The position numbers and the translations under genes were made by a program. DNA of 27,826 nt from IMG/VR virus record IMGVR_UViG_3300009431_000433, positions 1 to 27,826 of that record; one strand, 5' to 3'. The notes beneath the pieces are model-generated. The model was not told where the DNA came from. It was given only the letters and a program-made list of their open reading frames with translations, and ran no database searches. The stretch is from a virus. Shown here piece by piece: positions 7,130 through 24,175 of the stretch; position 1 is the stretch's first letter, and every line of letters begins with the position of its first letter.

Positions 7130-7139
7130 TAGTTACTCC

Positions 7140-9100: not shown

Positions 9101-9116
9101 TTTTCTGCTCCTTCCC

Positions 9117-9242
9117 TCACTGCTCCTCTTCTTCATATCTAAGATCTAGATCATCTCTTACATAGTCTATACAGACAGGACACACAAGACAAAAAGGCGT
9201 TTCTCCTGCAAACTCCGTTCCACAGTATATGCAAACATTCAT
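9117..9242 (-). CDS. Small zinc-ribbon-like protein, 41 aa
   Basis: ATG follows AGGAGGAAGCAG. The product begins MNVCIYCGTEF and continues FCLVCPVC, giving a CX2C...CX2CX2C ribbon, with a very acidic C-terminus ending EEEEQ. Its TGA is followed by the polymerase ribosome-binding site, which also explains why the polymerase most likely uses a TTG start. Role unknown. Confidence 0.72.
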   Translation of the reverse strand: MNVCIYCGTEFAGETPFCLVCPVCIDYVRDDLDLRYEEEEQ

Positions 9243-9252
9243 CTGCTTCCTC

Positions 9253-9441
9253 CTATTTAACGTTATCATAACCATCTTTTGCCCATCCACGACCCTTTAA
9301 ACGAAATGATGTAGGTCCTATACAAAGCTTCATCCTTGTACAACACTTCAAGCAATACTGAGGCTCCTTCCGCTTATTAACCTTTTTAGTATATGTCGCC
9401 TGAGCCTCACATTTAGGGCACTTATACAGATATCTCGGCAT
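9253..9441 (-). CDS. FmdB-type zinc ribbon protein
   Basis: The 62-residue product has the signature MPRYLYKCPKC, a second pair CLKCC, and the ending FRLKGRGWAKDGYDN that is typical of FmdB/CxxC_CXXC_SSSS family proteins in bacteria and phages. Those bind one zinc; their biochemical role is not settled, although 'regulatory protein FmdB' is the usual name. Start and upstream stop overlap as TAATG, so translation is coupled. A second, longer member occurs beside the portal gene. Confidence 0.88.
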   Translation of the reverse strand: MPRYLYKCPKCEAQATYTKKVNKRKEPQYCLKCCTRMKLCIGPTSFRLKGRGWAKDGYDNVK

Positions 9442-9671
9442 TAGTCTACCTTAACCTTTTTACATGACTTGTTCGTAGGACTCTTGACCGTCTCACTGGC
9501 CTGCTTTTTTCCTCCAGCAGCCCTAATCTTTGCTCGTTCAACGGTCTCAAACAGCTCTTCCAGCTCATCAGTGTTTAGTACAGTTGACCAAGTTCCGATA
9601 CATATCCTATTAACCACTAGCACCACCTCTCTGGGCTTATACGGCTCACTCTCTTTACGCGTAATCGGCAT
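9441..9671 (-). CDS. Hypothetical protein, 76 aa
   Basis: ATG 9671 follows AAGGAGCAATAGA; the longer reading to 9689 would overlap the upstream gene and lacks a site. The N-terminal half has a beta-rich stretch (REVVLVVNRICIGTWSTVL), then an acidic helix (DELEELFETVERAKIRA) and a lysine-rich tail (NKSCKKVKVD). It could be a small nucleic-acid or protein-binding factor. No family is recognised. Confidence 0.78.
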   Translation of the reverse strand: MPITRKESEPYKPREVVLVVNRICIGTWSTVLNTDELEELFETVERAKIRAAGGKKQASETVKSPTNKSCKKVKVD

Positions 9672-9672
9672 T

Positions 9673-10149
9673 CTATTGCTCCTTTCCACAATCTACACAA
9701 AATGCGATGTTTTTATGATCGTTCCTACAGTATACCTCTTTCGTACCTCCCCCACAGGCCGTACAGCAATCACAGGAATGACTTGGGGGGTAGGGCTTAC
9801 CTGGAGGGTGATCGTTCAACACAGGGCAATTCTGTGCGTCTGAGAGGGTATCCTGATAGAGTGCATACCCTAGGATCATATAATTAATTAGATCTAAGAA
9901 TCGTCCCTTAACAGGTTCTCCAGATTCCTGTCTCCCCGTCTTAACCAGTGTGCAGATAGAATCCCAATGTTTACCAGCGTACACAGCCCAAACATGCATA
10001 GAAGACAGGCCAAGATTATCGGCGTTACGCTTAAAATTAATGAGCCTATCGCTATCCCCTCCAGTATAGTCGTGACCTTTCCCACGCAGTACCTCCTTAC
10101 ATTCTTTAATCAGTTCTGTCAAAACTGATTGAAACTCTTTATCTTTCAT
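9673..10149 (-). CDS. DUF1599 (nucleotide modification associated domain 1)-like protein with C-terminal Cys-rich tail
   Basis: The N-terminal ~105 residues are helical with KGHDYTGGDSDRLINFKRNADNLGL, VWAVYAGKHWDSICTLVKTGR and GRFLDLINYMILG, a pattern (K--DY, NF-R, KH--S-, D--NY) that resembles DUF1599/MazG-like phage proteins. The C-terminal 40 residues add CDCCTACGG and CRNDHKNIAFCVDC, a likely zinc ribbon fused to it. If the family call is right, it relates to nucleotide modification or pool control; catalytic activity is not certain. ATG follows AGGAGGTTCA and overlaps the upstream metallophosphoesterase. Confidence 0.75.
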   Translation of the reverse strand: MKDKEFQSVLTELIKECKEVLRGKGHDYTGGDSDRLINFKRNADNLGLSSMHVWAVYAGKHWDSICTLVKTGRQESGEPVKGRFLDLINYMILGYALYQDTLSDAQNCPVLNDHPPGKPYPPSHSCDCCTACGGGTKEVYCRNDHKNIAFCVDCGKEQ

Positions 10150-10643
10150 TGAACCTCCTGCATCTTACGCTTAAGTGTATTCCAACTAAGCGGCTTAAAG
10201 TCATTAAGGTCTACGCCGACATTATACAACTTATCGTAGTGCATATCACTTCTTTGATGTGTATGTCCATGTAGGCAAAAGCTGTGATAGTGCGATACGA
10301 TAGGATAATGACACAATAGGACGTGTAATTTATCCTTATTGTATACAAGCACATCATGTACTTCGGCAAAACCACTACGTAAGGCAGCTTGTACGCTAAT
10401 ATCGTGATTTCCTCTGATTAAGATCTTCGTACCATGTAATTCCTTGACCCAGTTGGCTATACATCTAGCCTGAGCTAACCCAAAGTCTCCGAGTACGTAA
10501 ACGACATCCTTCGGGCGTACACAGCTATTCCAATTGGCTATTAGTGCATGATTCATTAAAGCTATGCCTGTAAACGGCCTATGGCAGTATTTGATGATAT
10601 TTGTATGTCCTAGATGTAGGTCCGCTGTAAACCAGTCAGTCAT
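10146..10643 (-). CDS. Calcineurin-like metallophosphoesterase (1 of 2)
   Basis: The 165-residue product holds the full set of di-metal motifs: DLHLGH (Asp8, His10), GDFG (Asp53), GNHD (78-81), CHYP (His112) and HGHTH (125-129). It is the short, single-domain type common in phages and bacteria. Activity may be phosphodiesterase or protein/nucleotide phosphatase; the substrate cannot be read from sequence. It overlaps the DUF1599-like gene by 4 bases and follows a small membrane gene. Confidence 0.9.
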   Translation of the reverse strand: MTDWFTADLHLGHTNIIKYCHRPFTGIALMNHALIANWNSCVRPKDVVYVLGDFGLAQARCIANWVKELHGTKILIRGNHDISVQAALRSGFAEVHDVLVYNKDKLHVLLCHYPIVSHYHSFCLHGHTHQRSDMHYDKLYNVGVDLNDFKPLSWNTLKRKMQEVQ

Positions 10644-10646
10644 AGG

Positions 10647-10787
10647 TCAGTTCACCTTTCGTTGGTTACCCTTTAATATCCTATCAACTAGCTTATCCGC
10701 CCACTTATCCATAGGTCCACGTAAATACACGAGAAATATCACTACTGTAAGGAGAAATAGACCCAGTTTAGTCAGTTCTAGTATCAT
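10647..10787 (-). CDS. Small membrane protein, 46 aa
   Basis: ATG lies three bases after AGGAGG, inside the 3' end of the upstream 55-residue gene. The product has one hydrophobic span (GLFLLTVVIFLVYL, about 9-22), then an amphipathic basic tail (DKWADKLVDRILKG). Three bases separate its stop from the next start. One-span topology is clear, function is unknown. Confidence 0.68.
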   Translation of the reverse strand: MILELTKLGLFLLTVVIFLVYLRGPMDKWADKLVDRILKGNQRKVN

Positions 10788-10935
10788 CGGCCTCCTCTAG
10801 CTGCTTTAGCTGCTCCTGGAGCTTGCGAAGCGTATAAATAAGGTCATGCACGTGAGATGCTTTCGCATTTCCTATCCTAGGGGTTCGATCTTCTATATGC
10901 TCTATATCTTCGTCCGTAAGTAAGAATCGATTCAT
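10768..10935 (-). CDS. Small coiled-coil-like protein, 55 aa
   Basis: Its ATG overlaps the upstream stop (ATGA) and is preceded by AGGAGGATAA. The product has an acidic start (LLTDEDIEHIEDRTPR) and a long helix with heptad spacing (LIYTLRKLQEQLKQLEEAD). It overlaps the following membrane gene by 20 bases. Likely a dimerising partner; no family recognised. Confidence 0.7.
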   Translation of the reverse strand: MNRFLLTDEDIEHIEDRTPRIGNAKASHVHDLIYTLRKLQEQLKQLEEADDTRTD

Positions 10936-11162
10936 TTATCCTCCTCATATCTATCCGCAGGCAGCTTTTTCAGAATAAGCTGTAGTAGTTTCTTCCAACC
11001 TTGGGATCGCTTGTGCTTAACAGTGAACGTTTTACCCATTCCTTTAACTTTGTAGTAGCACAGATCACCATCGTCGCCTTCTTGAAGGTCTGTGAAACCT
11101 ATATTATGGGCAGTAATATATTCAAGCGTTATAGCGTTGACATGAATATGAAAACCGATCAT
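10932..11162 (-). CDS. Hypothetical protein, 76 aa
   Basis: A small soluble alpha/beta-looking protein: an N-terminal FHIHVNAITLEYITAH, an acidic turn (LQEGDDGDLCYYKV) and a basic C-half (KTFTVKHKRSQGWKKLLQLILKK). The start overlaps the stop of the 30-residue gene upstream (ATGA) and the stop overlaps the 55-residue gene start, so it is the middle of a coupled chain. Function unknown. Confidence 0.78.
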   Translation of the reverse strand: MIGFHIHVNAITLEYITAHNIGFTDLQEGDDGDLCYYKVKGMGKTFTVKHKRSQGWKKLLQLILKKLPADRYEEDK

Positions 11163-11251
11163 AGGACCCCCTTATCAAGACATTTACACAATATCCAGCC
11201 GATAATGGCACCACCGACGCATAAACCCCCAATGAGTATAATACACCCCAC
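11159..11251 (-). CDS. Very small glycine-rich membrane peptide, 30 aa
   Basis: A GTG start eight bases after AAGGAG. It overlaps the stop of the upstream gene by one base and its own stop overlaps the next ATG (ATGA). The product is one hydrophobic span with glycines at small intervals (ILIGGLCVGGAIIGWIL) and three Cys, which favours tight helix packing in the membrane. Glycine-zipper peptides of this size can form oligomers. Real gene status rests on the ribosome-binding site and coupling. Confidence 0.5.
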   Translation of the reverse strand: MGCIILIGGLCVGGAIIGWILCKCLDKGVL

Positions 11252-11724
11252 TATTTAAACTCCTTTCGAATATACTTGACGCACTCGTCGATATTATCAA
11301 GATATTCATAAACACACCCCTTCTGAAAGTTAGGAATCCTTTCATAGGCTATGTATCTTATACAGAGTACAGGTATCTTAAGAAATCGGGCTAATACCAT
11401 CTCCCCTAAAGTTCCTCCAGAATCGTTTACAGAGTCATCGTACAATACTATCATGAGGCTGCTATCAGCAATAGCTTCAAGGTCCTTATCTACAATCTCA
11501 CTCCAAAATGCATCAAGGACATCACGATTATGTACATATTTTGCTGGTTCTAGATCCTCAGCTCTCACTTCATGCTTATCATAGATAGGAGACTCATTTA
11601 AGCAGGGATTAAAGACATTATAACCTAGTCTTTCTAAATGAGGGGTTATAAGACGTCTCCAGGTTGTTCCTCTATCCTTACGTTTATCTATACCTCCTGC
11701 TAGATATACCTGCTTTTTTGTCAT
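11251..11724 (-). CDS. Nucleoside 2-deoxyribosyltransferase-like protein
   Basis: The 157-residue product starts with a Rossmann-like strand VYLAGGID (6-13), then WRRLITPHLERLGYNVFNP. It carries DADLEAIADSS-type helix sequence before MIVLYDD and the key GGTLGEMVLARFLKIPVL, with Glu108 in the position of the family nucleophile. NDT enzymes exchange bases on deoxyribonucleosides, or remove them. This suggests a role in nucleotide salvage or modified-nucleotide metabolism. Related folds (LOG-like, TIR-like, DUF1937-like) are alternatives. Starts after AAGGAGAGGTAGT. Confidence 0.75.
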   Translation of the reverse strand: MTKKQVYLAGGIDKRKDRGTTWRRLITPHLERLGYNVFNPCLNESPIYDKHEVRAEDLEPAKYVHNRDVLDAFWSEIVDKDLEAIADSSLMIVLYDDSVNDSGGTLGEMVLARFLKIPVLCIRYIAYERIPNFQKGCVYEYLDNIDECVKYIRKEFK

Positions 11725-12089
11725 ACTACCTCTCCTTTGATTTTTTTATACATTGTCCGGTAATACAGGACCTGTCCTCTACACCACTTATTCCATTTGT
11801 GTGCATTTGCGTGGATATGGTTGTGATGACAATTATGAGTAGCGCGGCTATCACAATAAAGGTCACATAAAGGAATAGTAGTATGGTCACTGTATTTTCT
11901 CGTATGTATGCCGTCCCCTGCATGATGCGCTGCCACAGTTCCATACTCTCGTCCCTCCTTAAACTTATCATGCCAAGTGCTTGTTCGACTAAGAACCCAT
12001 TTCCACGGACCGGGAGGCTGCCAGGTACATAGAGCACACGGCTGCTGTTTAATCCATATTATGTACTCTTCGTCTTTAATCTTGGTCAA
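11721..12089 (-). CDS. HNH-type zinc nuclease-like protein
   Basis: TTG 12089 is chosen because AGGAG lies seven bases upstream; the longer reading to 12158 would run through the whole 46-residue upstream gene. The 122-residue product has PCALC near residue 17, VAAHHAGDGIHTRKYSDHTTIPLCDLYC and later HNCHHNHIH. These Cys/His positions match the treble-clef HNH fold of phage Holliday-junction/recombination-type nucleases (DUF968/NinG-like), which cut or bind DNA. I cannot place it in one subfamily. Overlaps the next gene by ATGA. Confidence 0.78.
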   Translation of the reverse strand: MTKIKDEEYIIWIKQQPCALCTWQPPGPWKWVLSRTSTWHDKFKEGREYGTVAAHHAGDGIHTRKYSDHTTIPLCDLYCDSRATHNCHHNHIHANAHKWNKWCRGQVLYYRTMYKKIKGEVV

Positions 12090-12216
12090 AATTAAGCTCC
12101 TCAGTACAAGGAAAAACGAAATCTGTTGACTCACATTCTCTACAAAGCCCTGCTTCATAGTTATCGTCTATACATAAAGGTCTTCCGCACTCCTTACAAC
12201 GAATCACTGGACTCAT
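12076..12216 (-). CDS. Small zinc-ribbon-like protein, 46 aa
   Basis: The ATG overlaps the preceding stop codon (ATGA) and follows AAGGAGATAGTAAGATT. The product has CKECGRPLC in its first 15 residues and CRECES near residue 25, then an acidic C-terminus (CTEELNFDQD). The CX2C...CX2C pattern fits one zinc ribbon. The stop overlaps the TTG start of the HNH gene by 14 bases. Function unknown. Confidence 0.7.
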   Translation of the reverse strand: MSPVIRCKECGRPLCIDDNYEAGLCRECESTDFVFPCTEELNFDQD

Positions 12217-12476
12217 AATCTTACTATCTCCTTAATGCAGCCACGTGGAATAACAGTAGCCTCGCTTTTATCTGCACCTCCAGACACTTGCTTACTGGCG
12301 TAGATACGTACTATTCTGTCGTTACTGGTATGCACCCATCCAACAGAGAGAACTGTCACAACATCTAAGCTCTTCATGCCCATCTCTGATTCCCATACAC
12401 AAGATGAGAGGATATCCTCCCAAATAATCTGAACTAACTCCCCAGACTTAAGGTGTCCTTTCCTCTTTCGCGTCAT
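12213..12476 (-). CDS. Hypothetical phage protein, 87 aa
   Basis: A small beta-rich soluble protein: a basic start (RKRKGHLKSGEL), the core VQIIWEDILSSCVWESEMGM, VVTVLSVGWVHTSNDRIVRIYASK and a C-terminal IPRGCIKEIVRL. The order 'W-D--SS--W' then 'S-GW' occurs in other phage proteins annotated as hypothetical (recall). The start overlaps the upstream metallophosphoesterase stop by 4 bases. Confidence 0.8.
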   Translation of the reverse strand: MTRKRKGHLKSGELVQIIWEDILSSCVWESEMGMKSLDVVTVLSVGWVHTSNDRIVRIYASKQVSGGADKSEATVIPRGCIKEIVRL

Positions 12477-13174
12477 GATCGCTCCATAGGCACAAAGATT
12501 GCGTTACTGTTGTTATATATAATACCACATCCCAGAATACCCTTCTTCTTCACATATTTAGCGTATCGTTGAGCTAAAGCCGTGTTATCGCAAAGACAGC
12601 CTGTGTTTAGTCCAAAAATCAGACTATTATGATTAGCTGAATATTTAACTCCGGCTTCGGCGTGCATATGCCCCTGTACAAAACTACATCGTTTATAGAT
12701 TGCACTATTCAGAGCTCCATTAACTCCACCACTATTAATTCCATGCTCTACTAAAATATCCCACTTCTTAATCACATAATACAGTTTGTGAATCTCCCAA
12801 CCCCGAGAGAGGCCATAAAGAGCATTTAACTCTTTTAATAGCTTCTCGGAGAGGCTAAGAGTCTGCATCTGACGCTGGGGAATCAAATCATGATTCCCGA
12901 GGACCAAAACTCCTTTTGGAAATGCTTTGGAAAAGTTTGCAGAAAAAGCCAGAGCTTTTGCATACTCTTCGTCAGGTGCAGCTGCATCACATTCATGAAT
13001 ATGACGACTCATGGCGTGAAAGTCGAATAGATCCCCATCGTGAATAATTGTAGGATCGCACTTGAACTGTGCGTGCATATCCTGCAAAAATTCGATAGTA
13101 TGCTTATGGTGATAAGGTGCATGAAAATCACCACAGACTAGTATAGGCTTATTCTTTTTACCAAACAGGGTCAT
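12473..13174 (-). CDS. Calcineurin-like metallophosphoesterase (2 of 2)
   Basis: A 233-residue protein with DFH (Asp16, His18), GDLFD (47-51), GNHD (93-96) and GHMH (168-171), the full di-metal set. It is longer than the other metallophosphoesterase and shows no close similarity by eye, so they were probably acquired separately. The HEC/DAAAPDEEY insertion before GNHD is seen in other phage members (recall). It may act on phosphodiester or phosphoprotein substrates; unknown. Placed next to a zinc-ribbon protein and a RecB-like nuclease. Confidence 0.9.
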   Translation of the reverse strand: MTLFGKKNKPILVCGDFHAPYHHKHTIEFLQDMHAQFKCDPTIIHDGDLFDFHAMSRHIHECDAAAPDEEYAKALAFSANFSKAFPKGVLVLGNHDLIPQRQMQTLSLSEKLLKELNALYGLSRGWEIHKLYYVIKKWDILVEHGINSGGVNGALNSAIYKRCSFVQGHMHAEAGVKYSANHNSLIFGLNTGCLCDNTALAQRYAKYVKKKGILGCGIIYNNSNAIFVPMERS

Positions 13175-13552
13175 TTATTCCTCATTAGTATCTGGGACCT
13201 GTATAACATCAGTTGGTGCATTGTCCCTTTTTACAAACTTAACAAACTTTTCGTTCCACTTTAGATAAAAACCGCCTCCATTTTCAGGTTTTCTCTGGTG
13301 TATTAAAATTGAAGCACCGCAGATAGCACACCGAAGCTCGTGAAAAGTCCCTCCCTTCTTACCCGTCTCAGTATTCGGGGCCACCTTCCGAACACTAAAC
13401 TTAATACTTGTACTTCCGCACTCGTCACAAGTATTGCGAGCAGCAATTTCCTGTAACAATCCTACACTGTCCAGAGTCTCGCCAAAACTTCTACCCTCCG
13501 CTTCCATCGTCACTGTTGTTGCTCCCATAGGGAACGTTACTGTTGCTGTCAT
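13175..13552 (-). CDS. Conserved phage zinc-ribbon protein
   Basis: The 125-residue product opens with a beta segment and MEAEGRSFGETLDSVGLLQEI, followed by CDECGST and ELRCAICGAS, a complete four-Cys zinc ribbon. The C-terminus is FYLKWNEKFVKF. The arrangement resembles a phage protein often found with recombination or single-strand-binding genes (recall), but no function is proven. It starts after AAGAGGAATAC and abuts the metallophosphoesterase gene without a gap. Confidence 0.82.
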   Translation of the reverse strand: MTATVTFPMGATTVTMEAEGRSFGETLDSVGLLQEIAARNTCDECGSTSIKFSVRKVAPNTETGKKGGTFHELRCAICGASILIHQRKPENGGGFYLKWNEKFVKFVKRDNAPTDVIQVPDTNEE

Positions 13553-13584
13553 GTATTCCTCTTTTCTCCCCCGAATCAGTTTTT

Positions 13585-13601
13585 GTGTACAACTAGTACA
13601 C
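13585..13601. promoter_or_regulatory. Inverted repeat GTGTAC-N5-GTACAC, operator-like
   Basis: In the 62-base gap between the nuclease gene and the zinc-ribbon gene, GTGTAC and GTACAC form six-base arms around a five-base spacer. It sits about 33 bases upstream of the start codon at 13552. No clear -35/-10 pair accompanies it, so it may be an operator, an RNA hairpin or chance. Confidence 0.35.
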
Positions 13602-13614
13602 CGCTTATAGACTG

Positions 13615-14460
13615 TTATTCTACTGGTTGCTTTTCCTGATCATCCTCTAAATCGAAAACCTTTTCTATAGGCCATTTATACACAGTGCTATAGTCTACTG
13701 GATCATGTATACCATATCTAAGGAGCGTTGTATGATTATATCGCTTCCAGACAGTAAACAGATGCTTAAAACTGTCAAAACAGCCTTCTATGCTCTTACG
13801 ACTCTGAATTATGCGCCCTTCTGGATTAAATACCCCTGTCTTTAGATCAGTATGGAGCACTCTAAGTCTCTGGATATGTAACTTGTGGAGTTTTGCTGCC
13901 ATTGCAGCATATGTGGCCATCTGCCAAGAGGCTTTTACATCATACTTCCAGCTCCCTCCCGACTTATAATCCCACAATTCCCTACAGCCATTGCATACAA
14001 CAATCTTATCTACAGTACCAGCTATGCCTAACTCCGGATCAATCATCGACTGTTCAAGCATAAGAGTTTCAAGCTGTTGATCATTCTCCCACTCTATATA
14101 CTGTCTTAACATATCTTGATGTACATCTGCTGATCCTTTCTTACCTTGTTTAATACCCAAATCGTAATTCTCTAATACCTCGTGCATTTCTGTACCTTTC
14201 TTAGCTGCTGCATCAGCTACCCACTTATACGCATCAGGATGACGCTGCTGCGCACATATACGTCCTACCCACTCAATAAACTTTTTATTCTTAATCATGC
14301 CAAGCACAGTCGTAACTGACACACATGGATGCTCTAAATCATCCCGCCAGTACCAGCGCCAGTCTCTCTTAGTATCGGTCCAGCGCTTTACTGTTCGACC
14401 CTCAGAATCCTTAAAGATTAGGATATCTTTTGCCCATGTAGTGTCTTTTATTGCTGCCAT
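13615..14460 (-). CDS. PD-(D/E)XK nuclease, RecB/Cas4-like exonuclease
   Basis: The 281-residue product has the full nuclease core of the RecB family: a His in KKGTEMHEVLE (motif I), Asp in GIAGTVDKI (motif II), Asp and Lys in LWDYKSG (motif III) and QMATY (QxxxY motif). Such phage enzymes process double-strand ends for recombination, and may serve a RecA/RusA pathway or DNA degradation here. ATG 14460 is chosen because it follows the upstream stop and a weak GGATGT; an ATG three codons earlier is an alternative. An N-terminal region of about 80 residues precedes the core. Confidence 0.9.
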   Translation of the reverse strand: MAAIKDTTWAKDILIFKDSEGRTVKRWTDTKRDWRWYWRDDLEHPCVSVTTVLGMIKNKKFIEWVGRICAQQRHPDAYKWVADAAAKKGTEMHEVLENYDLGIKQGKKGSADVHQDMLRQYIEWENDQQLETLMLEQSMIDPELGIAGTVDKIVVCNGCRELWDYKSGGSWKYDVKASWQMATYAAMAAKLHKLHIQRLRVLHTDLKTGVFNPEGRIIQSRKSIEGCFDSFKHLFTVWKRYNHTTLLRYGIHDPVDYSTVYKWPIEKVFDLEDDQEKQPVE

Positions 14461-14461
14461 T

Positions 14462-14665
14462 TTACACATCCATTGTTAGTGTTTTTGTATACACCATAGC
14501 CTTTTTATACTTCTCGAATCTACAAAGAGCCTGCTTTTCTGCCTTTTGCATATTCTTACCCATACCGAAGACAAACGGAAGAAGATCTCCAGTCTTCCAT
14601 ATCTCACATACATAAAGATCAGTAGCACTTACGAATTTCATCTTTACTGTAAGGGTTTGCTGCAT
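14462..14665 (-). CDS. Hypothetical protein, 67 aa
   Basis: ATG 14665 follows AAGGAGAATTA; an upstream in-frame start at 14683 lacks a site. The product is a small beta-alpha protein: MQQTLTVKMKFVSATDLYVCEIWKT, FVFGMGKNMQKAEKQALCRFEKYKK, similar in outline to small phage dsRBD-like or Arc-type helices but not identifiable. It is the first gene after the structured leader and promoter at 14719-14906, so it may be the gene that leader controls. Confidence 0.78.
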   Translation of the reverse strand: MQQTLTVKMKFVSATDLYVCEIWKTGDLLPFVFGMGKNMQKAEKQALCRFEKYKKAMVYTKTLTMDV

Positions 14666-14718
14666 TAATTCTCCTTCTTCCAAGTGCCCTATCGTCGTCT
14701 TATCTATTGTAAATACAC

Positions 14719-14833
14719 GGGGACTATTTTCTTTATTATCCTACATATAAGCACTAGCTATGTCACCCGTGCAACTGATTTACCCGTCAATCGCCATCTA
14801 GTATGTAGGCCGGGAGGGAGAGAAACAGTCCCC
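14719..14833 (-). other. Nested inverted repeat: candidate structured 5' leader, small RNA or foldback element
   Basis: Read on the minus strand, this segment folds into nested stems. P1 pairs 14827-14833 with 14719-14725 (GGGGACT/AGTCCCC) plus 14821-14825 with 14728-14732 (TTTCT/AGAAA). P2 pairs 14802-14809 with 14740-14747 (CCTACATA/TATGTAGG). A short CTAG stem follows, and P4 is a hairpin of 14787-14794 with 14771-14778 around an eight-base loop containing CGGGT. Two pairs in P4 are G-U only on the minus strand, which favours a minus-strand RNA. A CCCGG run in the P1-P2 junction could pair with the CGGG loop. It lies about 37 bases after the start of transcription predicted from the promoter at 14877-14906. 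The alternative is a MITE-like foldback DNA element. Confidence 0.55.
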
Positions 14834-14876
14834 ACAAAAAGCTCCCTTATTTCCCTTTTTCGGTATCATTAGTGCG

Positions 14877-14906
14877 ATTATATCACGTTTGTTTCTTCAG
14901 TGTCAA
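14877..14906 (-). promoter_or_regulatory. Perfect-consensus sigma70 promoter
   Basis: On the minus strand, TTGACA (14906-14901), an 18-base spacer and TATAAT (14882-14877). Both boxes match consensus at all six bases. The promoter overlaps the last codons of the 78-residue gene, so it starts a new transcript inside the leftward gene array at about 14870. The transcript begins with the structured segment at 14719-14833 and reaches the gene at 14665 after a leader of about 205 bases. Confidence 0.85.
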
Positions 14907-15114
14907 GCTTTAAAACTAATTTATGTCGTAACCGTTCAACATCAATACCTAATTCCCTGCACATAAACTCACATCCCGTACCCACTTCAAACAGAAAACG
15001 CTGGGCATCTCGTTTGACCGATCTATTCGGAGACGTAAGAAAGTCCTTACATGCTTGTTCTACTACAGCGTAGATTAGCTTGCAGTAGGCGTCATATGTA
15101 ACAGTAGTTTTCAT
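14878..15114 (-). CDS. Conserved phage hypothetical protein, 78 aa
   Basis: A helical protein with the pattern FLTSPNRSVKRDAQRFLFEVGTGCEFMCRELGIDVERLRHKL. The 'S----DA-RF------F--LC--LGID-E-LR--L' layout occurs in many phage small proteins of unknown role (recall). The start overlaps the upstream stop as ATGA. Its 3' end contains the promoter at 14877-14906, a coding sequence that also carries a control signal. Confidence 0.82.
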   Translation of the reverse strand: MKTTVTYDAYCKLIYAVVEQACKDFLTSPNRSVKRDAQRFLFEVGTGCEFMCRELGIDVERLRHKLVLKLDTEETNVI

Positions 15115-15371
15115 GATCTAGTAGTTAAAGCTATTTGCATACCTAGTATCGCTACATGACTAGCAGTTGTTGATATCTCATCCGCAAGCTTAATAACCTC
15201 TAAAGTAGCGTCATGTCGTTGATTTGCCTCATCAAATACAAAATCACCTAGTAGCCTATTCAGATCGCACTTATCCTGAAACTGTCGAATAGCGTCTTTG
15301 TACCTCTGTACTAGATCGTTGTTAATCGAATCTCTTCTATTATCTACAGCTGTTCCTCTGCGATGCTTCAT
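15111..15371 (-). CDS. Hypothetical helical protein, 86 aa
   Basis: Basic, Arg-rich start (KHRRGTAVDNRRDSI), followed by long helices (LVQRYKDAIRQFQDKCDLNRLL, ATLEVIKLADEISTTASHVAI). It begins after GGGGGTATT and overlaps the following gene by 4 bases. No motif is recognised. A DNA- or RNA-binding helical protein is possible from the N-terminal charge. Confidence 0.78.
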   Translation of the reverse strand: MKHRRGTAVDNRRDSINNDLVQRYKDAIRQFQDKCDLNRLLGDFVFDEANQRHDATLEVIKLADEISTTASHVAILGMQIALTTRS

Positions 15372-15386
15372 AATACCCCCTGAAAT

Positions 15387-15608
15387 TTAGTCTAGTAGAG
15401 ACGCAGCCTGCTGACATACCTCAAGAGTCAAGTCGTGTTCACAGTCCTGGCATACAATATACGTTTGCTCAAGCATCTCTATACGCTTAAGGTTATCCAC
15501 GGCGCATTCAGTACAGTACACAACGCCGCACAGTTCACAGTCTTGCCACGGAATATGTTCGTCATCCACTACTACGTCGCAGCTCTCACATTTATAGAAC
15601 TTTGGCAT
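15387..15608 (-). CDS. Small protein with RING/double zinc-ribbon-like Cys pattern
   Basis: The 73-residue product has four Cys pairs: CESC, CELC, CTEC and CQDC, in a VYCTECAVDN and YIVCQDCE context. Eight regularly spaced Cys suggest two zinc ions, possibly a cross-brace (RING/TFIIB-like) or two ribbons. Such small domains usually bind other proteins or nucleic acid. Starts after AAGGAGTCAAC and overlaps the upstream gene by 17 bases. True RING activity is not implied. Confidence 0.82.
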   Translation of the reverse strand: MPKFYKCESCDVVVDDEHIPWQDCELCGVVYCTECAVDNLKRIEMLEQTYIVCQDCEHDLTLEVCQQAASLLD

Positions 15609-15798
15609 GTTGACTCCTTTGCTTTATAAGCTGTCTACGCCTTCTCTGTAGTCGCGTTTTATGCTTTAGCAGTAGTGTTTGCATAGCATTAGTAATTTCT
15701 TCTACGAGCATTTCCTCAATAAACTCTAACTGTGCTTCGATATCAAAGCCCTCCATTATAGCTCTACAATCTTCATACTTCGGTTTTAATTTAGTCAT
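15592..15798 (-). CDS. Small coiled-coil basic protein, 68 aa
   Basis: An acidic helical centre (FDIEAQLEFIEEMLVEEITNAMQ) is followed by a strongly basic C-terminal helix (KHKTRLQRRRRQLIKQRSQHAK). It looks like a dimerising protein with a nucleic-acid-binding tail. Starts after GAGGTTCTT. It overlaps the Cys-rich gene downstream by 17 bases, which argues for coupled expression. Function unknown. Confidence 0.78.
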   Translation of the reverse strand: MTKLKPKYEDCRAIMEGFDIEAQLEFIEEMLVEEITNAMQTLLLKHKTRLQRRRRQLIKQRSQHAKVL

Positions 15799-15805
15799 AA
15801 GAACC

Positions 15806-16114
15806 TCACACTATAATATTAGTTTCTCCGATTGAAACTTTTTCATCATCAAACCATACCTTTATACCCGATTCAAGGCTATATTTATCTGTCACATAGT
15901 CCACGTAATTAGTAAGCCCTAGCTTATGTACCCAATGTTGTGCATATTCTTTTCCACCTCCCGAAGCAACTACGATACTGCATCCTAATCGTTTAAACTG
16001 TAGAAGTATATCAATTATATCATACCTCGGGGTGTCATCAAAGCGAATTAAAGTACCGTCTACATCAAAGCCTACTCTGACTAATCTATTCTGTTCTTCT
16101 TTATAAGTGCTCAT
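15806..16114 (-). CDS. HAD-superfamily phosphatase-like protein
   Basis: The 102-residue product has the HAD motif I VGFDVDGTLIRF (Asp17 nucleophile, Asp19 acid/base), a motif II-like SIVVASGGG and a motif IV-like KVWFDDE. Length and lack of a cap domain match small capless HADs in phages, which dephosphorylate nucleotides or polynucleotide ends. Motif III lysine is probably in the DKYSLESGIK segment. It begins after AGGGAG and lies at the promoter-proximal end of the leftward array. Confidence 0.85.
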   Translation of the reverse strand: MSTYKEEQNRLVRVGFDVDGTLIRFDDTPRYDIIDILLQFKRLGCSIVVASGGGKEYAQHWVHKLGLTNYVDYVTDKYSLESGIKVWFDDEKVSIGETNIIV

Positions 16115-16126
16115 AGTATACTCTCC

Positions 16127-16276
16127 CTAAGAGACCATTTCATCTATATTGCAGCTTTCTGAAATAAGATCCTCTGGAGTGATGGCGCACCCTAGCGAGA
16201 ATAGCCCTGAGAGGCCCAGAATTAGCCCACATTGAACGATCGTATAGATTCTATACCCCAGTCGGCGAGGATTCAT
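16127..16276 (-). CDS. Small lipoprotein-like protein, 49 aa
   Basis: ATG overlaps the upstream stop (ATGA) and follows AGGGGAGCGTTAT. The product has a hydrophobic segment of about 15 residues (CGLILGLSGLFSLGC), ending at a Cys with a Ser-Leu-Gly before it, close to a lipobox. The tail (AITPEDLISESC...) is acidic and would be outside the cytoplasm. Possible small lipoprotein; could also be a plain signal anchor. It precedes the HAD gene by 12 bases. Confidence 0.62.
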   Translation of the reverse strand: MNPRRLGYRIYTIVQCGLILGLSGLFSLGCAITPEDLISESCNIDEMVS

Positions 16277-16506
16277 ATAACGCTCCCCTCAAGTAAATAT
16301 ACGTCTCCTCCAGGGAGACTATAGCAAGCTAGCTTCGAGCAGTTAAGGTTAGTACTCCAGGTGGTTAAAATGTATAGACCAGTAACTGTAAGCGCACCAA
16401 TAGCTAAGGTACCATCTGACCGCAGAACAGCCTTATAGTCACCTGAGTTAGAGAGTACTATACTGAATACTGAGTTATAGAACTTGCTTTTAGATGAACG
16501 TGACAT
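16273..16506 (-). CDS. Membrane protein, 77 aa
   Basis: ATG 16506 follows GGAGGATAAT; a longer reading to 16545 overlaps the upstream gene without a site. The product has a basic start (SRSSKSKFYN), a hydrophobic patch, and a clear membrane-like span (LAIGALTVTGLYILTTW), then a Cys-containing C-terminus (CSKLACYSL) ending LLEGSVI. One or two spans are possible. Overlaps the small lipoprotein-like gene by 4 bases. Unknown function. Confidence 0.78.
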   Translation of the reverse strand: MSRSSKSKFYNSVFSIVLSNSGDYKAVLRSDGTLAIGALTVTGLYILTTWSTNLNCSKLACYSLPGGDVYLLEGSVI

Positions 16507-16507
16507 A

Positions 16508-16735
16508 TTATCCTCCGTAATCTTTGTGGTTGCCCTCGGCTTCATTTAATTCATAGCCTGCTATATAGTCAGTATAATTTTGTGTTGTAAACCGTATATC
16601 GCCTATCGCTATACGTTCTGAGGTATAACTACCTCCGACGTAATAATGAGGATCTATCCCTCTGCGGTAGTAACTATCAGCCGCTCCTCGATCCCAAGCA
16701 CTTCCGTGTCTTTTATCTATCAATTCGTGTACCAT
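16508..16735 (-). CDS. Conserved small phage protein (DRG-ADSYYRRG-PHYY motif)
   Basis: The 75-residue product contains HGSAWDRGAADSYYRRGIDPHYY and a later YIAGYELNEAEGNHKDYG. The signature 'DRG-ADSYY-R---PHYY ... AGY------KDY' is found in many phage and some bacterial small proteins (recall) and is unassigned in function. Starts four bases after AAGGAG. It is one of the first genes of the leftward array. Confidence 0.85.
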   Translation of the reverse strand: MVHELIDKRHGSAWDRGAADSYYRRGIDPHYYVGGSYTSERIAIGDIRFTTQNYTDYIAGYELNEAEGNHKDYGG

Positions 16736-16801
16736 AGAGCTCCTTCATCTCATTGCCCTTGATGCAGACATTCAGCAAAGGTAGTTGTTGCCTATCATTA
16801 C

Positions 16802-16927
16802 CTAATGCCCGTTAAATATGCTTTCAAGTATTGTTATCCATAATATCAAGGTACGTCTGACCCGCATCACCTTATCATAAAGCTGTGTACCCTTCTGCTC
16901 AAACCAATCATATAATATACGAAACAT
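16802..16927 (-). CDS. Small protein, 41 aa, built of segments repeated elsewhere in the window
   Basis: ATG follows AAAGGAG by four bases. The product has an N-terminal YDWFEQK, a basic centre (YDKVMRVRRT) and a hydrophobic C-half (LILWITILESIF). Three pieces of its DNA recur nearby: 20 bases (16895-16914) also at 17132-17151 within the next gene, 19 bases (16840-16858) also at 17553-17571, and 14 bases (16822-16835) also at 17444-17457. It may be a chimeric duplicate of the control region rather than an old gene. Confidence 0.6.
   Translation of the reverse strand: MFRILYDWFEQKGTQLYDKVMRVRRTLILWITILESIFNGH
16822..16858. repeat. Short repeats shared with the intergenic control region
   Basis: Two identical blocks: 16840-16858 (ATAATATCAAGGTACGTCT) equals 17553-17571, and 16822-16835 (TTTCAAGTATTGTT) equals 17444-17457. 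They lie close together here and are about 96 bases apart in the control region, in swapped neighbourhood with a promoter. Confidence 0.8.
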
Positions 16928-16942
16928 AATACTCCTTTGTTT

Positions 16943-17242
16943 TTAGAAAGACTGGATTATAAACCTCGATTCGTCGATGGGAATCATTATCGTGTCTTCG
17001 TTAAGCTGCTCCATAGTCGCATACTTCTTATTACGGGCCAGGTTAAAGGCTTCTAATGATTCGTATTCCTTAAACTCATAACATATAGCGTCAACGTTTA
17101 TCTCTAGTTCACTCTCGATATCCTTTTCAAACTGCTCAAACCAATCATATAGCGCGTTCAATCCTTCGTAGCTAAAATGAGCTGGTGGCCCGTGGGCGCG
17201 GAAGGCTTCCCTAAACATGCTTCGTGTTAAGATCTGTTTCAT
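16943..17242 (-). CDS. Conserved phage protein of unknown function, 99 aa
   Basis: The first gene after the leftward promoter at 17394-17422. The product carries HFSYEGLNALYDWFEQFEKDIESELEINVDAICYEFKEYES, close to a widespread phage/plasmid hypothetical family ('F-YEGL-ALYDW-E ... D-ICYEF-EYES', recall), whose function is unassigned. ATG follows GGAGGATT. The transcript leader is about 140 bases and contains the GGGTCGCGACCC palindrome. As an immediate-early gene it could take part in take-over of the host, which is inference. Confidence 0.85.
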   Translation of the reverse strand: MKQILTRSMFREAFRAHGPPAHFSYEGLNALYDWFEQFEKDIESELEINVDAICYEFKEYESLEAFNLARNKKYATMEQLNEDTIMIPIDESRFIIQSF

Positions 17243-17338
17243 AATCCTCCCTATCCTTCTTCTCTTTGGTTATGATCTAAAGCTTCCAAGGTGTACTCAC
17301 TTACCTCTACTTAATCGCCTTGGCATCCGATGAGTACT

Positions 17339-17350
17339 GGGTCGCGACCC
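17339..17350. promoter_or_regulatory. Perfect 12-bp palindrome GGGTCGCGACCC
   Basis: Lies in the leader about 37 bases downstream of the predicted start of the leftward transcript. Flanks extend the symmetry with one extra base (ACT... / ...CAGT). It could be an operator or, in RNA, a tight hairpin. One such palindrome is expected rarely by chance in a region this size. Confidence 0.5.
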
Positions 17351-17393
17351 CAGTCCCTTGCTTGATCTATTTAATTGTCAACCAACTACCTAC

Positions 17394-17422
17394 ATCCTAT
17401 CGCAAAACCTACTTCGTGTCAA
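17394..17422 (-). promoter_or_regulatory. Leftward sigma70-like promoter
   Basis: On the minus strand, TTGACA (17422-17417), 17-base spacer and TAGGAT (17399-17394); the -35 is perfect and the -10 matches four of six. It is the best candidate for the start of the whole leftward array. A second TTGACA at 17381-17376 has no good -10 box. Confidence 0.65.
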
Positions 17423-17470
17423 CCTTATTTTCTTTTATTATGTTTTCAAGTATTGTTCTATTCATAGTTA

Positions 17471-17482
17471 GATGCATGCATC
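17471..17482. promoter_or_regulatory. Perfect 12-bp palindrome GATGCATGCATC
   Basis: About 49 bases upstream of the leftward -35 box. With the palindrome at 17339-17350 it brackets the promoter. The sequences differ, so if both are operators they bind different proteins. Activator or repressor site is possible. Confidence 0.4.
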
Positions 17483-17712
17483 ATGCCAAGGTGTTACATT
17501 AAGGATATCAACCACTTACATCAACTGTATAGGTACAATTATACCCATATAAATAATATCAAGGTACGTCTAAGCTAGTGATGTCATTGGATAAGTACAT
17601 AAACACCCACATATAATACAGTGTCAATACGATGACATTTAGCAAGGAATAATGCAGTGAGTTACAGTGAATATAGAATTATATCTCTTATATTCAGCCT
17701 TCTTATGTTTAT

Positions 17713-17742
17713 ATGCAGCTTTGTGTTATGCAGCTTTGTGTT
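17713..17742. repeat. Two-copy tandem repeat of 15 bp
   Basis: ATGCAGCTTTGTGTT is present twice without a gap. Imperfect copies of a second element (TATTCAGCCTTCTTATGTTTA at 17691 and TACTCAGCCTTATGTTTA at 17747) flank it. Could be iteron-like, or simple slippage. Confidence 0.7.
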
Positions 17743-17838
17743 TCTATACTCAGCCTTATGTTTAACAATTCCAACGCCTCTGTCTCTCTAGTTTCAGTCC
17801 CACCATACATCAACAGCACCATATAGCGACCATGCCCC

Positions 17839-17857
17839 GGGGGGTGGGGAGCCCCCC
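17839..17857. other. Strong G/C hairpin without T-run
   Basis: Six G (17839-17844), a seven-base loop and six C (17852-17857). It has no T-run on either strand, so it is not a standard terminator. It may block read-through between divergent transcripts or bind a protein. Confidence 0.5.
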
Positions 17858-17946
17858 AAGCCTTCCTTATTATATAGGTAGACCTTTTAAAAATATACAC
17901 CAGAAAATGCACGGTCCCATGAACCTAGAAACATCAATGATCCTGC

Positions 17947-17964
17947 GTACTTAGGAATAAGTAC
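17947..17964. promoter_or_regulatory. Inverted repeat GTACTTA-GGAA-TAAGTAC, operator candidate
   Basis: Perfect seven-base arms with a four-base spacer, ending 11 bases before the -35 box of the rightward promoter. The size and place suit a dimeric regulator controlling the switch to head-gene expression. No regulator gene could be matched to it in this window. Confidence 0.55.
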
Positions 17965-17975
17965 TATCTTAGCTC

Positions 17976-18004
17976 TTGACAGCACCTAGGAAGTATGGTA
18001 TAGT
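17976..18004 (+). promoter_or_regulatory. Rightward (late) sigma70-like promoter
   Basis: TTGACA (17976-17981), a 17-base spacer and TATAGT (17999-18004; five of six). Transcription would begin around 18010-18012, and the terminase ATG is at 18014. The transcript would therefore have almost no leader. Confidence 0.8.
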
Positions 18005-18013
18005 ATAGAGAGA

Positions 18014-19456
18014 ATGAATGAGTCTGTTAATATCTCGACCCTTCCCCCTCATAAGCTGTTTCGTGCATGGTGTTATGCTTATCTGGGCCGCTATTTCAAA
18101 GTGAAGTTAGGGCCGTTGCACGACAAGTGGTTTAAGCTGACTGAGCGCAAACGAGTAGGCATTTCAGCTCCTAGAGGGTTCGCAAAAAGTCACTTTTGGA
18201 CCTTCTACTACCCCCTCTTTGTTGCACTTACTCAACCAGGTAAGAATATAGTTATCGTGTCCGCATCTGCCACTTTAGCAGAATCATTCCTCATGAAGAT
18301 CAAGAAAGAACTGGAGTTTAACAGCCTTCTACGAGGCGATTTTGGTGATCAGGTGTCTCAGACTTGGAGAAATAATCTCCTGCACTTCAATAACGGTTCG
18401 ACTATTGAAGCGATTGGTGCTCAGGGACGGATTCGCGGCAAACGCCCCGATCTAATCGTTATTGATGATCTTGAGAATGACATAAACGTTATGTCCGAGG
18501 AACTACGCCGCAAGTTAGTTCAGTGGTTTACAAAAGCCGTTATTAACACTCTCACTGTTGATGGACAGTTAATCATTGTTGGAACAAAACTTCACCCTCT
18601 CTCTTTTCTGGCCAGGCTGGTGGCTAAGGACGAATCCGTCATTCATAACTATTCGAAATGGCACATTGAGCAATTCAATGCGTTAGATGATTTCGGGGAA
18701 TCAGTCTGGCCTCAACTATACACTACTTCATGGCTTAAAGACAAGGAAGCAGAAATCGGTATCGAAGCCTTTCAACAGGAGTATATGAATAATCCTATTC
18801 CTGATGAATACCGTCAGTTTAAGCCGGAGTATTTTAAATATTTCACCGAATTACCCGATGACTTAGTGTACACGACTACCGTAGATCCTGCGGCGAAGAT
18901 TGAAGAACGTCATGACTACACCGCCATTGTAACAGTAGGAATGAATAAAAAGGGCGAGATGTACATCGTAGAAGTAACTAGAGCTAAACTCCTACCTAAC
19001 GAAATTATTGATGAAATCCTACATCACTATAAACGTTGGAATTCTCACACCATAGGGTTTGAGGAAGTAGCTTTCCAAACAATCTTAAGACGCTATTTCG
19101 ATATGGAATGCGCTAAAAAGCGTCTCTTCCCTTACGTACAAGAACTAAAGCTCGATGTTTCTAAACATGGTCGTCGAAAGCGGTATCGGATAGAAGCATT
19201 ACAGCCCTATTTCAAGGCTGGTATGATACACATGAGGGAGGATATGAAAGACCTTCAGGCCGAACTTCTAGGTTTTCCTAGCGGTCAGCACGATGACGTC
19301 ATTGATGCCCTCGCTTCACAACTTGAGCTTGTCCGTCCAGGATCCCCTAAATCCTCGGAAGTACTACTTCCAGGGACTTTTGGACATCACTGGGCCGGGA
19401 TAAAAGCAGCTAAGATAAAAGGTAAATATAATAAACGCCGTTGGCATAAAGGTTAA
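18014..19456 (+). CDS. terL: Terminase large subunit
   Basis: The DNA-packaging motor: ATPase plus nuclease that cuts genome concatemers. In this 480-residue protein the ATPase has a Walker A-like APRGFAKS (52-59), Walker B LIVIDDLE (147-154) and a coupling motif VGTKLHP (189-195). The C-terminal RNase H-like nuclease shows Asp291 (TTVDPAAK), Glu350 (IGFEEV) and Asp427/428/431 (HDDVIDALAS). It is the first gene after the rightward promoter. The predicted transcript starts 2-4 bases before this ATG and there is no spaced ribosome-binding site, so translation may be leaderless. No small-terminase gene lies beside it. Next start is 3 bases after its stop. Confidence 0.96.
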   Translation: MNESVNISTLPPHKLFRAWCYAYLGRYFKVKLGPLHDKWFKLTERKRVGISAPRGFAKSHFWTFYYPLFVALTQPGKNIVIVSASATLAESFLMKIKKELEFNSLLRGDFGDQVSQTWRNNLLHFNNGSTIEAIGAQGRIRGKRPDLIVIDDLENDINVMSEELRRKLVQWFTKAVINTLTVDGQLIIVGTKLHPLSFLARLVAKDESVIHNYSKWHIEQFNALDDFGESVWPQLYTTSWLKDKEAEIGIEAFQQEYMNNPIPDEYRQFKPEYFKYFTELPDDLVYTTTVDPAAKIEERHDYTAIVTVGMNKKGEMYIVEVTRAKLLPNEIIDEILHHYKRWNSHTIGFEEVAFQTILRRYFDMECAKKRLFPYVQELKLDVSKHGRRKRYRIEALQPYFKAGMIHMREDMKDLQAELLGFPSGQHDDVIDALASQLELVRPGSPKSSEVLLPGTFGHHWAGIKAAKIKGKYNKRRWHKG

Positions 19457-19458
19457 TT

Positions 19459-21435
19459 ATGGCCACTAGAGAACTTCGCAAGAAAATAGCATCAGGAATT
19501 AAAGCAGGCTTTTCGTGGCTAGATGAACCTGTTGCCGCTCCAGGCTCTAGTACCCACAGACAGCGCGCAGACCGACTTACTGCATACCTTAAGGGTGATT
19601 ATTATAAAAGCGGATACGATACTAAATATATCGTCAATACGATGTACAATCTAGTCAACTTAATCCTTCCCCATTTAATTTATCATCAGCCCCATATAAA
19701 AATAAAACCAAAAAGACAGAACTTCTCTAAAAAAGCTAGAGACGGAAACGAATACGAGTCTATAAACGGTGCGCTAGCAGCAGAAATTAACGAGGTTAAA
19801 CTAAACAACATCCTCAAGAACATGAGGTTTAAGCACGAAATACGTGACTGCGCTTTTGATTGCTTAAGGTGGGGATTTGGTGTACTTAAAGTAGGTTACA
19901 GCCCCTCTACAGACCATGAGGACGATAATGAGTATTTAGACGAAAAAGATGTCTTTTGCCAACGAGTAAACCCTAAATACTTCGGAAAAGATCCTCTTGC
20001 ATCTGGTACCCACAACGCACGCTACCTAATTCATAAACTGTCCAAGACTTTAGATGAAGTAAAGGCTAACCCTAACTATAAAGGTACACGAGACCTTAAA
20101 GGCATTGGCCTCTCAGTAGATGACCCTAAAAAGAAGAAGCAAGAAGACTCCAAAGATGACACCGAGATGGTAACTCTCTATGAGTATCACGACATCTTAG
20201 AGAACAAGATACACACCTACGTTGAGGCCGGAGAGGCTCGTCACACCCAGAAACGCGTGTTATGGAGCCGTGATAACCCCCATAACATAAAAGGCTCTCA
20301 CTTTGTCATCTTGAAGTTCACAGGAGATCCAGACGACTTTATAGGCATTCCAATGCTCGCGATGATTGAAGATGAAGCCTTAGCCATGAACGAGGTTCTT
20401 TCTCTTATGATGAACCATCTACACCGCTTCCCAGGCCAAATAATCGCTGAAGAAGGCGCAATAGATGACACTCAGGTTACTGCAATAGAGAACGGCGAAC
20501 AAGGTTCCATCTTATTCACTAATAACGGAGCTTTAAGAGAAAATCGTGTCGAGAAAGTCTCACCTCTAAGCATGGGCCCCGAATACTTTAACACCAATAA
20601 TGTTCTCCAAGCCACTATAGATAAAATCTTAGGTATCCCCGACTTTCAGAGACAAGCTGGATCAGGCAAGAGAAAAACTGCCACGGAGTCGACCTTTGAA
20701 TCTAACGATTCCAATGTACGTAAACGTTTCTTCTTAGACTTTGTATATGATTTTGTAATAGAGACTGCCTCTAAGATACATGGATTAATGCTACAGTACC
20801 ACAAACCAAAAGATGAGATCGAGCTCTTAGGAGATTTTGAGGAGTGGATAGAATACACTAAGGAAGATATTCAAGGTGAGTATAGCTATGATTTTGACGT
20901 AGACACCATGCTTGCTTTTTCACAAGCTCAAGCACAAGGCCTGCTTAATTTTCTCCAAGTCGTAGGTGCTAATTCCTTCCTTCATCCCATAGTTAAGAAG
21001 TGGGATCCAGAGAAGGTAGCAAAGCAGATAGCAAAAGCCCTACAAGTTAACGTCGAAGCTTTAGAAGCAAACAACAAACTCGTCCGTACCGAATTTGATC
21101 CTTATGAAGAAAATGATCGCCTTCGCAAAGAGAGTACTATATACGATCCCAATCCGCATGAGCAGCATCAAAGACACATGGAAGTACACATGCAGCTAGT
21201 GCAAGAGCTTCAGCTTTCTGAAGATCCATCTGATAGAGATAAACTAGCTTTGTTAGCTAATCATCTTAAGGTTCACGAGATGATGGAAAGTATCGCCTCT
21301 CAATGGCCCGGAATCCTCCGAACCCAACCAGGAGGAGATCAGCAACTACCTCAAGCAGGCGGTCCCGCAGGTGAAACTACACCCTCTGAAATGGAAGCTC
21401 AACAGAATCTAACGACTGGACAGGAATTACCGTAA
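19459..21435 (+). CDS. Portal protein
   Basis: Forms the dodecameric ring at one capsid vertex through which DNA enters and leaves. The 658-residue length and the order of segments fit portal proteins: an N-terminal region with the MYNLVNLILPHLIYHQPHI helix, a central EALAMNEVLSLMMNHLHRFPG, and the GSGKRKTATESTFE stretch that is typical of portals before the clip/stem helices. The C-terminus is rich in Gln, Glu and Pro (QPGGDQQLPQAGG). It is directly downstream of terminase with AAAGGTTAATT as its ribosome-binding site. Confidence 0.92.
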   Translation: MATRELRKKIASGIKAGFSWLDEPVAAPGSSTHRQRADRLTAYLKGDYYKSGYDTKYIVNTMYNLVNLILPHLIYHQPHIKIKPKRQNFSKKARDGNEYESINGALAAEINEVKLNNILKNMRFKHEIRDCAFDCLRWGFGVLKVGYSPSTDHEDDNEYLDEKDVFCQRVNPKYFGKDPLASGTHNARYLIHKLSKTLDEVKANPNYKGTRDLKGIGLSVDDPKKKKQEDSKDDTEMVTLYEYHDILENKIHTYVEAGEARHTQKRVLWSRDNPHNIKGSHFVILKFTGDPDDFIGIPMLAMIEDEALAMNEVLSLMMNHLHRFPGQIIAEEGAIDDTQVTAIENGEQGSILFTNNGALRENRVEKVSPLSMGPEYFNTNNVLQATIDKILGIPDFQRQAGSGKRKTATESTFESNDSNVRKRFFLDFVYDFVIETASKIHGLMLQYHKPKDEIELLGDFEEWIEYTKEDIQGEYSYDFDVDTMLAFSQAQAQGLLNFLQVVGANSFLHPIVKKWDPEKVAKQIAKALQVNVEALEANNKLVRTEFDPYEENDRLRKESTIYDPNPHEQHQRHMEVHMQLVQELQLSEDPSDRDKLALLANHLKVHEMMESIASQWPGILRTQPGGDQQLPQAGGPAGETTPSEMEAQQNLTTGQELP

Positions 21436-21800
21436 TGCCCTTGTATGACTTTAAATGCAACATTTGTGGAGACATTAAAGAAGAGTTCCACTCCATTAAG
21501 GATAGGCATCGTTCGCACCCTTGTATATGCGGAGGAGAATATAGACTGACTATACTCAAATCAGCAGCTGTTCACGGATGTGACTCCTTTAATCCCCACT
21601 GGGATGTTCAAACAGGAGAATATTACGAAACTAAAGAGCACAAAGCATCGTGCCTTAAAAAGCTTGGCTGGACTCAATCAGACGGTCCATCCTCCCCCCG
21701 TAAATCTACCCCAGGGACAATCATAGGCAATAAGGCCGTGGACCCCTTTAAAGAGATTGCTAAAGGAAGGAAAAGCAAATGCCAGAAAACAGAGACGTAG
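21435..21800 (+). CDS. FmdB-type zinc ribbon protein, portal-linked
   Basis: The 121-residue product has MPLYDFKCNICGDIKEEFHSIKDR and HPCICGGEYRLTI, an FmdB-like zinc ribbon (two CX2C-like pairs), then a low-complexity basic tail with LGWTQSDGPSSPRKSTPGTIIG. FmdB-like genes are commonly next to portal or head genes in phages (recall), with no proven role. Starts in a TAATG overlap with the portal stop, so it is translationally coupled, and overlaps the scaffold gene start by 22 bases. Confidence 0.85.
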   Translation: MPLYDFKCNICGDIKEEFHSIKDRHRSHPCICGGEYRLTILKSAAVHGCDSFNPHWDVQTGEYYETKEHKASCLKKLGWTQSDGPSSPRKSTPGTIIGNKAVDPFKEIAKGRKSKCQKTET

Positions 21801-22705
21801 AACTCGAAACCCCAGGTGAACAATCCCCGGAACTCACCGAAGGTAATGAACAGGCTACAGATCAGGAAGAACATCAGGACTCATCCACAGACTCTTCCAG
21901 CAGTGTAACGGATGACGGTAACGTATGGAGCACCGATGGACTTGAGGAGCCTATGATAGCTCGCATAAAATCAGGTCAAAGTCTTTATACAAAAACCTCA
22001 CAAGAAAAAGCTGTGTTACAATCCAAGTATGATGAGCTTGCTCAAGGCATGCAACAGCTTCGACAAGAGGTTAACAGGACGCTAGACAACCCCACCGTCT
22101 ACGATTATTATCGTGCTCAGCGAGGCCTAGCTCCTATTAATCAGGTAAAGCCTGTAGATGCTCCAGATGAGCATGAATCTGCTCCTGCACTAGACCTAGA
22201 GGGCGCAGAAAGTGCCTCTGAGGTCTCAAGACGTGTTATGGAGTATGAGGCGAAGAGAGACGCCTATCGCGACCGTATGTGGGAAGCTCGTACCAAAGAG
22301 ATGGTAGATAAAGCTATTGCTTCAACTGAAGAACGTTTTGCTCCTGTGGCTAAATCAGTGTCCGATGACCGGTGGTATACCGCATTAGATAACATGAAAA
22401 GCAAGTACAGCGAGCATTTTGCTTCAGTTGAATCACAAGTGCTTCAACACATCTCCCATGGTGCTTATGGGCCCTTATACCGTCCCGGCGTCTCAGAGGA
22501 GGCTCTTTTAGAGAAAGTGTGGAGAGCTGAATGTCCCGACCAGGTACAGTTGTTTAACCAACTAGCCTGGAAGCAGAACAATGCAACAAAACGTGCTGCT
22601 GCGACGGAACGTACAACTCCTGCCAAAGTATCTACAAAGTCTCCATCAGGCAACTCAGTCGAAGATATAATCGCCCGAGTGAATGCAAACCTTGGTACGA
22701 AATAA
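21779..22705 (+). CDS. Capsid scaffolding protein
   Basis: The 308-residue product has an acidic, Ser/Glu/Asp-rich N-terminus (GEQSPELTEGNEQATDQEEH and more), a helical coiled-coil centre (EKAVLQSKYDELAQGMQQLRQEVNRTL) and a C-terminus with a basic tail (NVNANLGTK-like). Acidic N-terminus plus long helices, between portal and major capsid, is the classic scaffold position and composition. No protease motif is visible. Role inferred from place and composition. Confidence 0.85.
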   Translation: MPENRDVELETPGEQSPELTEGNEQATDQEEHQDSSTDSSSSVTDDGNVWSTDGLEEPMIARIKSGQSLYTKTSQEKAVLQSKYDELAQGMQQLRQEVNRTLDNPTVYDYYRAQRGLAPINQVKPVDAPDEHESAPALDLEGAESASEVSRRVMEYEAKRDAYRDRMWEARTKEMVDKAIASTEERFAPVAKSVSDDRWYTALDNMKSKYSEHFASVESQVLQHISHGAYGPLYRPGVSEEALLEKVWRAECPDQVQLFNQLAWKQNNATKRAAATERTTPAKVSTKSPSGNSVEDIIARVNANLGTK

Positions 22706-22727
22706 CAGTTTTTAGGAGGTATAGCTT

Positions 22728-23699: not shown

Positions 23700-23713
23700 G
23701 TTAGGAGAATATC

Positions 23714-24160: not shown

Positions 24161-24175
24161 GAAATCTCTCTATAG

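Follow-up and report, generated by a model that had tools for sequence, protein, structure and literature searches.

A perfect sigma70-type promoter and a predicted 205-nt leader ahead of the replication and recombination genes of a phage with almost no apparent close relatives

The described systems closest to the locus presented here are the ordinary internal sigma70 promoters of phage early and middle arrays, the put RNA of HK022 and the 6S RNA. The put RNA is about 70 nt long and forms two stem-loops, and putL is located just after the PL promoter (PMC9378689). In 6S RNA, approximately 200 nt long, the two ends pair as the closing stem of a rod with a central bubble (PMC8876501). Our locus shares with the ordinary internal promoters the consensus hexamers, the TG of an extended -10, and a placement at a module border, inside the end of the preceding gene and ahead of one that has a Shine-Dalgarno sequence; here, however, the consensus is perfect and the leader is unusually long (205 nt). 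The promoter is therefore a known kind of element. Like putL, the leader lies a short way downstream of an early promoter, is foldable and stands ahead of a long early array, whereas its fold is one long nested-stem rod starting 37 nt past the predicted transcript start and not the pair of stem-loops, about 70 nt in all, that marks a put antiterminator. The closing stem, the asymmetric internal loop and the apical stem recall 6S RNA, but the loop is small (9/7 nt), neither a terminator-like site near the stem end nor defined ends were seen, no Rfam match was obtained, and the structure is placed within a leader.

The window, meaning the whole stretch of DNA analysed, is one IMG/VR virus record of 27,826 nt (IMGVR_UViG_3300009431_000433). 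A leftward array at 273-17242 has genes for a DNA polymerase, a UvsX-like recombinase, a PD-(D/E)XK nuclease and a metallophosphoesterase among its members, and the terminase, portal and head genes lie in a rightward array from 18014. Within the leftward array, the block at 14878-17242 is made of small genes, most of them without relatives, and leftward from 14665 runs the replication and recombination block, to which the nuclease, metallophosphoesterase, polymerase and recombinase genes named above belong. A tRNA search of the window found none. The features at the border of the two blocks are as follows.

14878-15114, minus strand: 78-aa gene, function unassigned, with the promoter in its last codons
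14877-14906, minus strand: sigma70-type promoter TTGACA-N18-TATAAT with TG before the -10, the only 12/12 match in the window
14666-14870, minus strand: predicted leader of 205 nt linking the promoter to the gene at 14665, presumably transcribed
14462-14665, minus strand: 67-aa gene, function unassigned, first gene past the leader, with its ATG after GAAGGAG
13615-14469, minus strand: PD-(D/E)XK exonuclease-like gene of 284 aa, second gene past the leader

The first-pass annotation had reported a perfect TTGACA-N18-TATAAT on the minus strand in the last codons of the 78-residue gene, and exactly this match is found at 14906-14877, where the TAA stop of the ORF falls within the -10 hexamer. When sigma70 promoters are defined by their hexamers and a spacing of 16-18 nt, the element agrees at 12 of 12 positions with a spacer of 18, the assumed consensus being an E. 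coli-type one that may not be that of the host. In the 27.8-kb window a single 12/12 match was obtained with spacers of 15-19, against 0.05 expected, and a second scan with spacers of 16-18 again gave one, where shuffles averaged 0.017. The promoter match is clearly beyond chance. The runner-up lies at 17976-18004 on the plus strand (11/12, TTGACA-17-TATAGT, also with TG before the -10) and comes shortly ahead of the terminase gene, the first of the rightward array, thus the strongest promoter matches are located at module borders. The predicted start of this second promoter is 18011, which is 3 nt ahead of the terminase ATG (18014), and the terminase transcript would possibly be a leaderless late one.

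The promoter opens a gap of 212 nt (14666-14877), and the gene at 14665 follows. This gap had been described as the only sizeable one in the leftward array, with no ORF to explain it. It is indeed the largest clearly ORF-free gap of that array, but the gap at 16736-16942 reaches 207 nt and has a possible 41-aa ORF inside. Transcription would start at about 14870, as judged from the position of the -10. The gene at 14665 has an ATG with a good Shine-Dalgarno sequence (GAAGGAG) and a positive codon score, and a long leader on such a gene is given directly by the anatomy of promoter, gap and gene.

Part of the leader can be folded into nested stems, predicted as follows.

14719-14833, minus strand: nested-stem segment, with weak statistical support
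14833-14819 with 14719-14732, minus strand: predicted closing stem of 11 bp, a bulged C and 3 bp
14809-14802 with 14740-14747, minus strand: predicted second stem of 8 bp
14794-14787 with 14771-14778, minus strand: predicted inner hairpin of 8 bp

The stem pairs GGGGACT/AGTCCCC, CCTACATA/TATGTAGG and GCGATTGA/TCAGTTGC are present and nest within one another. Pairing is predicted with a probability of 0.94-0.98 in the closing stem (first seven pairs), 0.77-0.98 in the second stem and 0.75-0.89 in the inner hairpin. An earlier description gave four nested stems of 7+5, 8, 4 and 8 bp; both 8-bp stems and the nesting stand, while the closing stem is redrawn as above and the 4-bp CTAG stem is unlikely, its predicted pair probability being just 0.11. 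The two G-U pairs in the inner hairpin, on the minus strand only, were seen again. The internal loop is asymmetric, with 9 nt (CCCTCCCGG) on one side and 7 nt (ATAATAA) on the other, and the fold is rod-like. Relative to its own shuffles, the plus strand folds nearly as well as the minus strand.

A conserved structured RNA may be expected to fold clearly more stably than its shuffled versions, and the leader does not: the folding energy gives z -0.12 over 189 nt and +0.66 over the whole 212-nt gap, and z -2.06 is obtained only when the sequence is trimmed to the 121-nt stem stretch. In a sliding-window fold scan run at coarse steps along the window, the element is absent from the 30 lowest z-scores. 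The lowest-scoring, most unusual fold is located elsewhere, at 12864-12988 inside the metallophosphoesterase gene, with z -5.4 on the plus strand and -4.0 on the minus strand (25 shuffles each). We also used a nested-stem score that counts helices of at least 7 bp with G-U allowed. The element scores 30, a value attained by 2 of 600 shuffled versions of the gap but also by 11 of 261 equal stretches of this genome on the minus strand, a set in which some overlap the element itself. Since this score was chosen after the fold had been seen, it lends weak support at most. The fold exceeds chance only weakly, and a function of the leader fold as an RNA is unproven.

None of the relatives found covers the element. 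Rfam gave no match in the whole window at the gathering threshold, only snoRNA matches with E 3-5 and scores far below gathering at permissive thresholds, and no 6S match for the element even at E 10; the first-pass annotation had not matched it to a known RNA class either. A blastn search of the element found nothing in plasmids and chance matches only in phages, and the exact 33-base core of the element was absent from the scanned GTDB genomes. Pattern scans of IMG/VR returned one contig for GTGGGGACTGTTTNTCT, without similar stems around it, and three contigs for GATTGACGGGTAAATC, in surroundings unlike the element. GGGGACT does not occur again in the window, and the inverted repeat, for which a search elsewhere in the genome had been suggested, has no second place in the record. 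Protein searches detected no relatives of the flanking 67-aa and 78-aa genes, and the route through the UvsX-like protein led to none. Relatives of the PD-(D/E)XK nuclease gene are limited to distant ones (27-29%) in four phage records, and we found none in IMG/VR or the GTDB genomes. Relatives of the DNA polymerase and terminase reach only 24-32%, except in an 8.5-kb IMG/VR contig (L002) that is 99.7% identical over 15643-24191, starts at 15643 and thus misses the element. For the major head protein, one distant match (22%) was found in 50,697 phage records, with the terminase at about 30%. Judged by these comparisons, the phage has almost no close relatives.

It is probable that the locus is a strong promoter for a sigma factor of the host, with a leader of 205 nt, and that it raises transcription of the replication and recombination genes lying beyond. 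What we observe directly is the match to the promoter consensus, the order of the genes, the gap and a leader that is able to fold, and we infer the use of the promoter, its start and its role. A housekeeping-sigma promoter set between the small-gene block and the replication and recombination block would drive transcription from about 14870 through the leader, into the gene at 14665 and on from there, and it may boost the latter block without depending on promoters upstream. The sole 12/12 match in 27.8 kb, the module-border position of the two strongest matches, the ATG, good Shine-Dalgarno sequence and positive coding score at 14665 and the nature of the genes downstream all argue for this explanation, with the reservation on the host consensus given above. 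The stem structure would be a modest modulator at most, for instance in 5'-end protection or spacing of the ribosome site, and might have no function. The foldable leader may be incidental, and a folding energy equal to that of shuffles is consistent with such a plain leader; against it, the leader is unusually long for so compact an array, and the rarity of the score among shuffles, together with a fold as well defined as the closing-stem pairs indicate, may hint at selection.

A structured leader, a polymerase-binding RNA and an antisense RNA had all been suggested for this segment. The sequence features behind these suggestions hold, but positive evidence is lacking: the energy is ordinary, there is no Rfam match, no homologue in the collections searched and no terminator-like site at the stem end. 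We consider it unlikely that the leader is a cis-acting structure (riboswitch-like, translational or a put-like antiterminator) controlling the gene at 14665 or read-through into the block. Its position directly past a strong promoter and ahead of a long array would suit such a role, the nested fold is well defined, with a score that 2 of 600 shuffles reach, and a pyrimidine tract, CTCTCCCTCCC (about 14822-14812, mostly internal loop), could pair with the ribosome site GAAGGAGA. The same score, however, occurs in 11 of 261 stretches of the genome, no terminator-like site is available to be switched, and the architecture is unlike put RNA. A bolder proposal, in which the nested-rod leader is a new phage RNA element acting on RNA polymerase by antitermination or as a decoy and controls the replication block of an undescribed small phage lineage, is decidedly improbable. 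A discrete phage small RNA, such as a 6S-like polymerase-binding or an antisense RNA, is very improbable even with a strong dedicated promoter and a rod-like fold whose 9/7-nt loop loosely resembles the 6S central bubble. A free small RNA is disfavoured by the lack of a terminator-like site near the stem end (about 14715) and by a closing stem that begins 37 nt past the predicted start; moreover, 6S is unmatched in Rfam at E 10 and the gene downstream has a good ribosome site.

The inverted ends GGGGACT/AGTCCCC, and the nearly equal folding of both strands, are what a MITE-like foldback element of approximately 115-120 bp inserted in the gap would show. Such an element had been proposed, with multiple copies and target duplications as its expected signs, and we regard it as highly improbable because the sequence is single copy among the record, plasmids, phages and GTDB genomes searched and has no clear target duplication, the flanks sharing GT at most. 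That the gap holds a short unannotated gene is extremely improbable. The candidate ORFs are as follows.

ATG at 14869, minus strand: candidate ORF of 23 aa, one base past the predicted start
GTG at 14835, minus strand: candidate ORF of 25 aa, with AGGGAG ahead of the GTG
14684-14872, plus strand: candidate ORF of 62 aa in the gap

The start of the first next to the predicted transcript start and the AGGGAG of the second speak for a gene; yet neither the 62-aa nor the 23-aa ORF has a positive codon score, that of the 25-aa frame is not positive either (scored 3 bases off the listed coordinates, in the same frame), and the 23-aa peptide has no match.

Should the leader prove functional, a lineage without close relatives would have yielded a new phage regulatory RNA. 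As it stands, the locus offers little more than a clear match to a strong promoter where two early gene blocks meet, of use in annotating the genome and in selecting a leader to test.

The two arrays are separated by a gap of 771 nt (17243-18013), in which a G/C-rich inverted stretch, CCCCGGGGGGTGGGGAGCCCCCC, is found near 17835-17857 and TATGCAGCTTTGTGTT-like motifs are repeated near 17715-17745. This gap is a candidate control region or origin.
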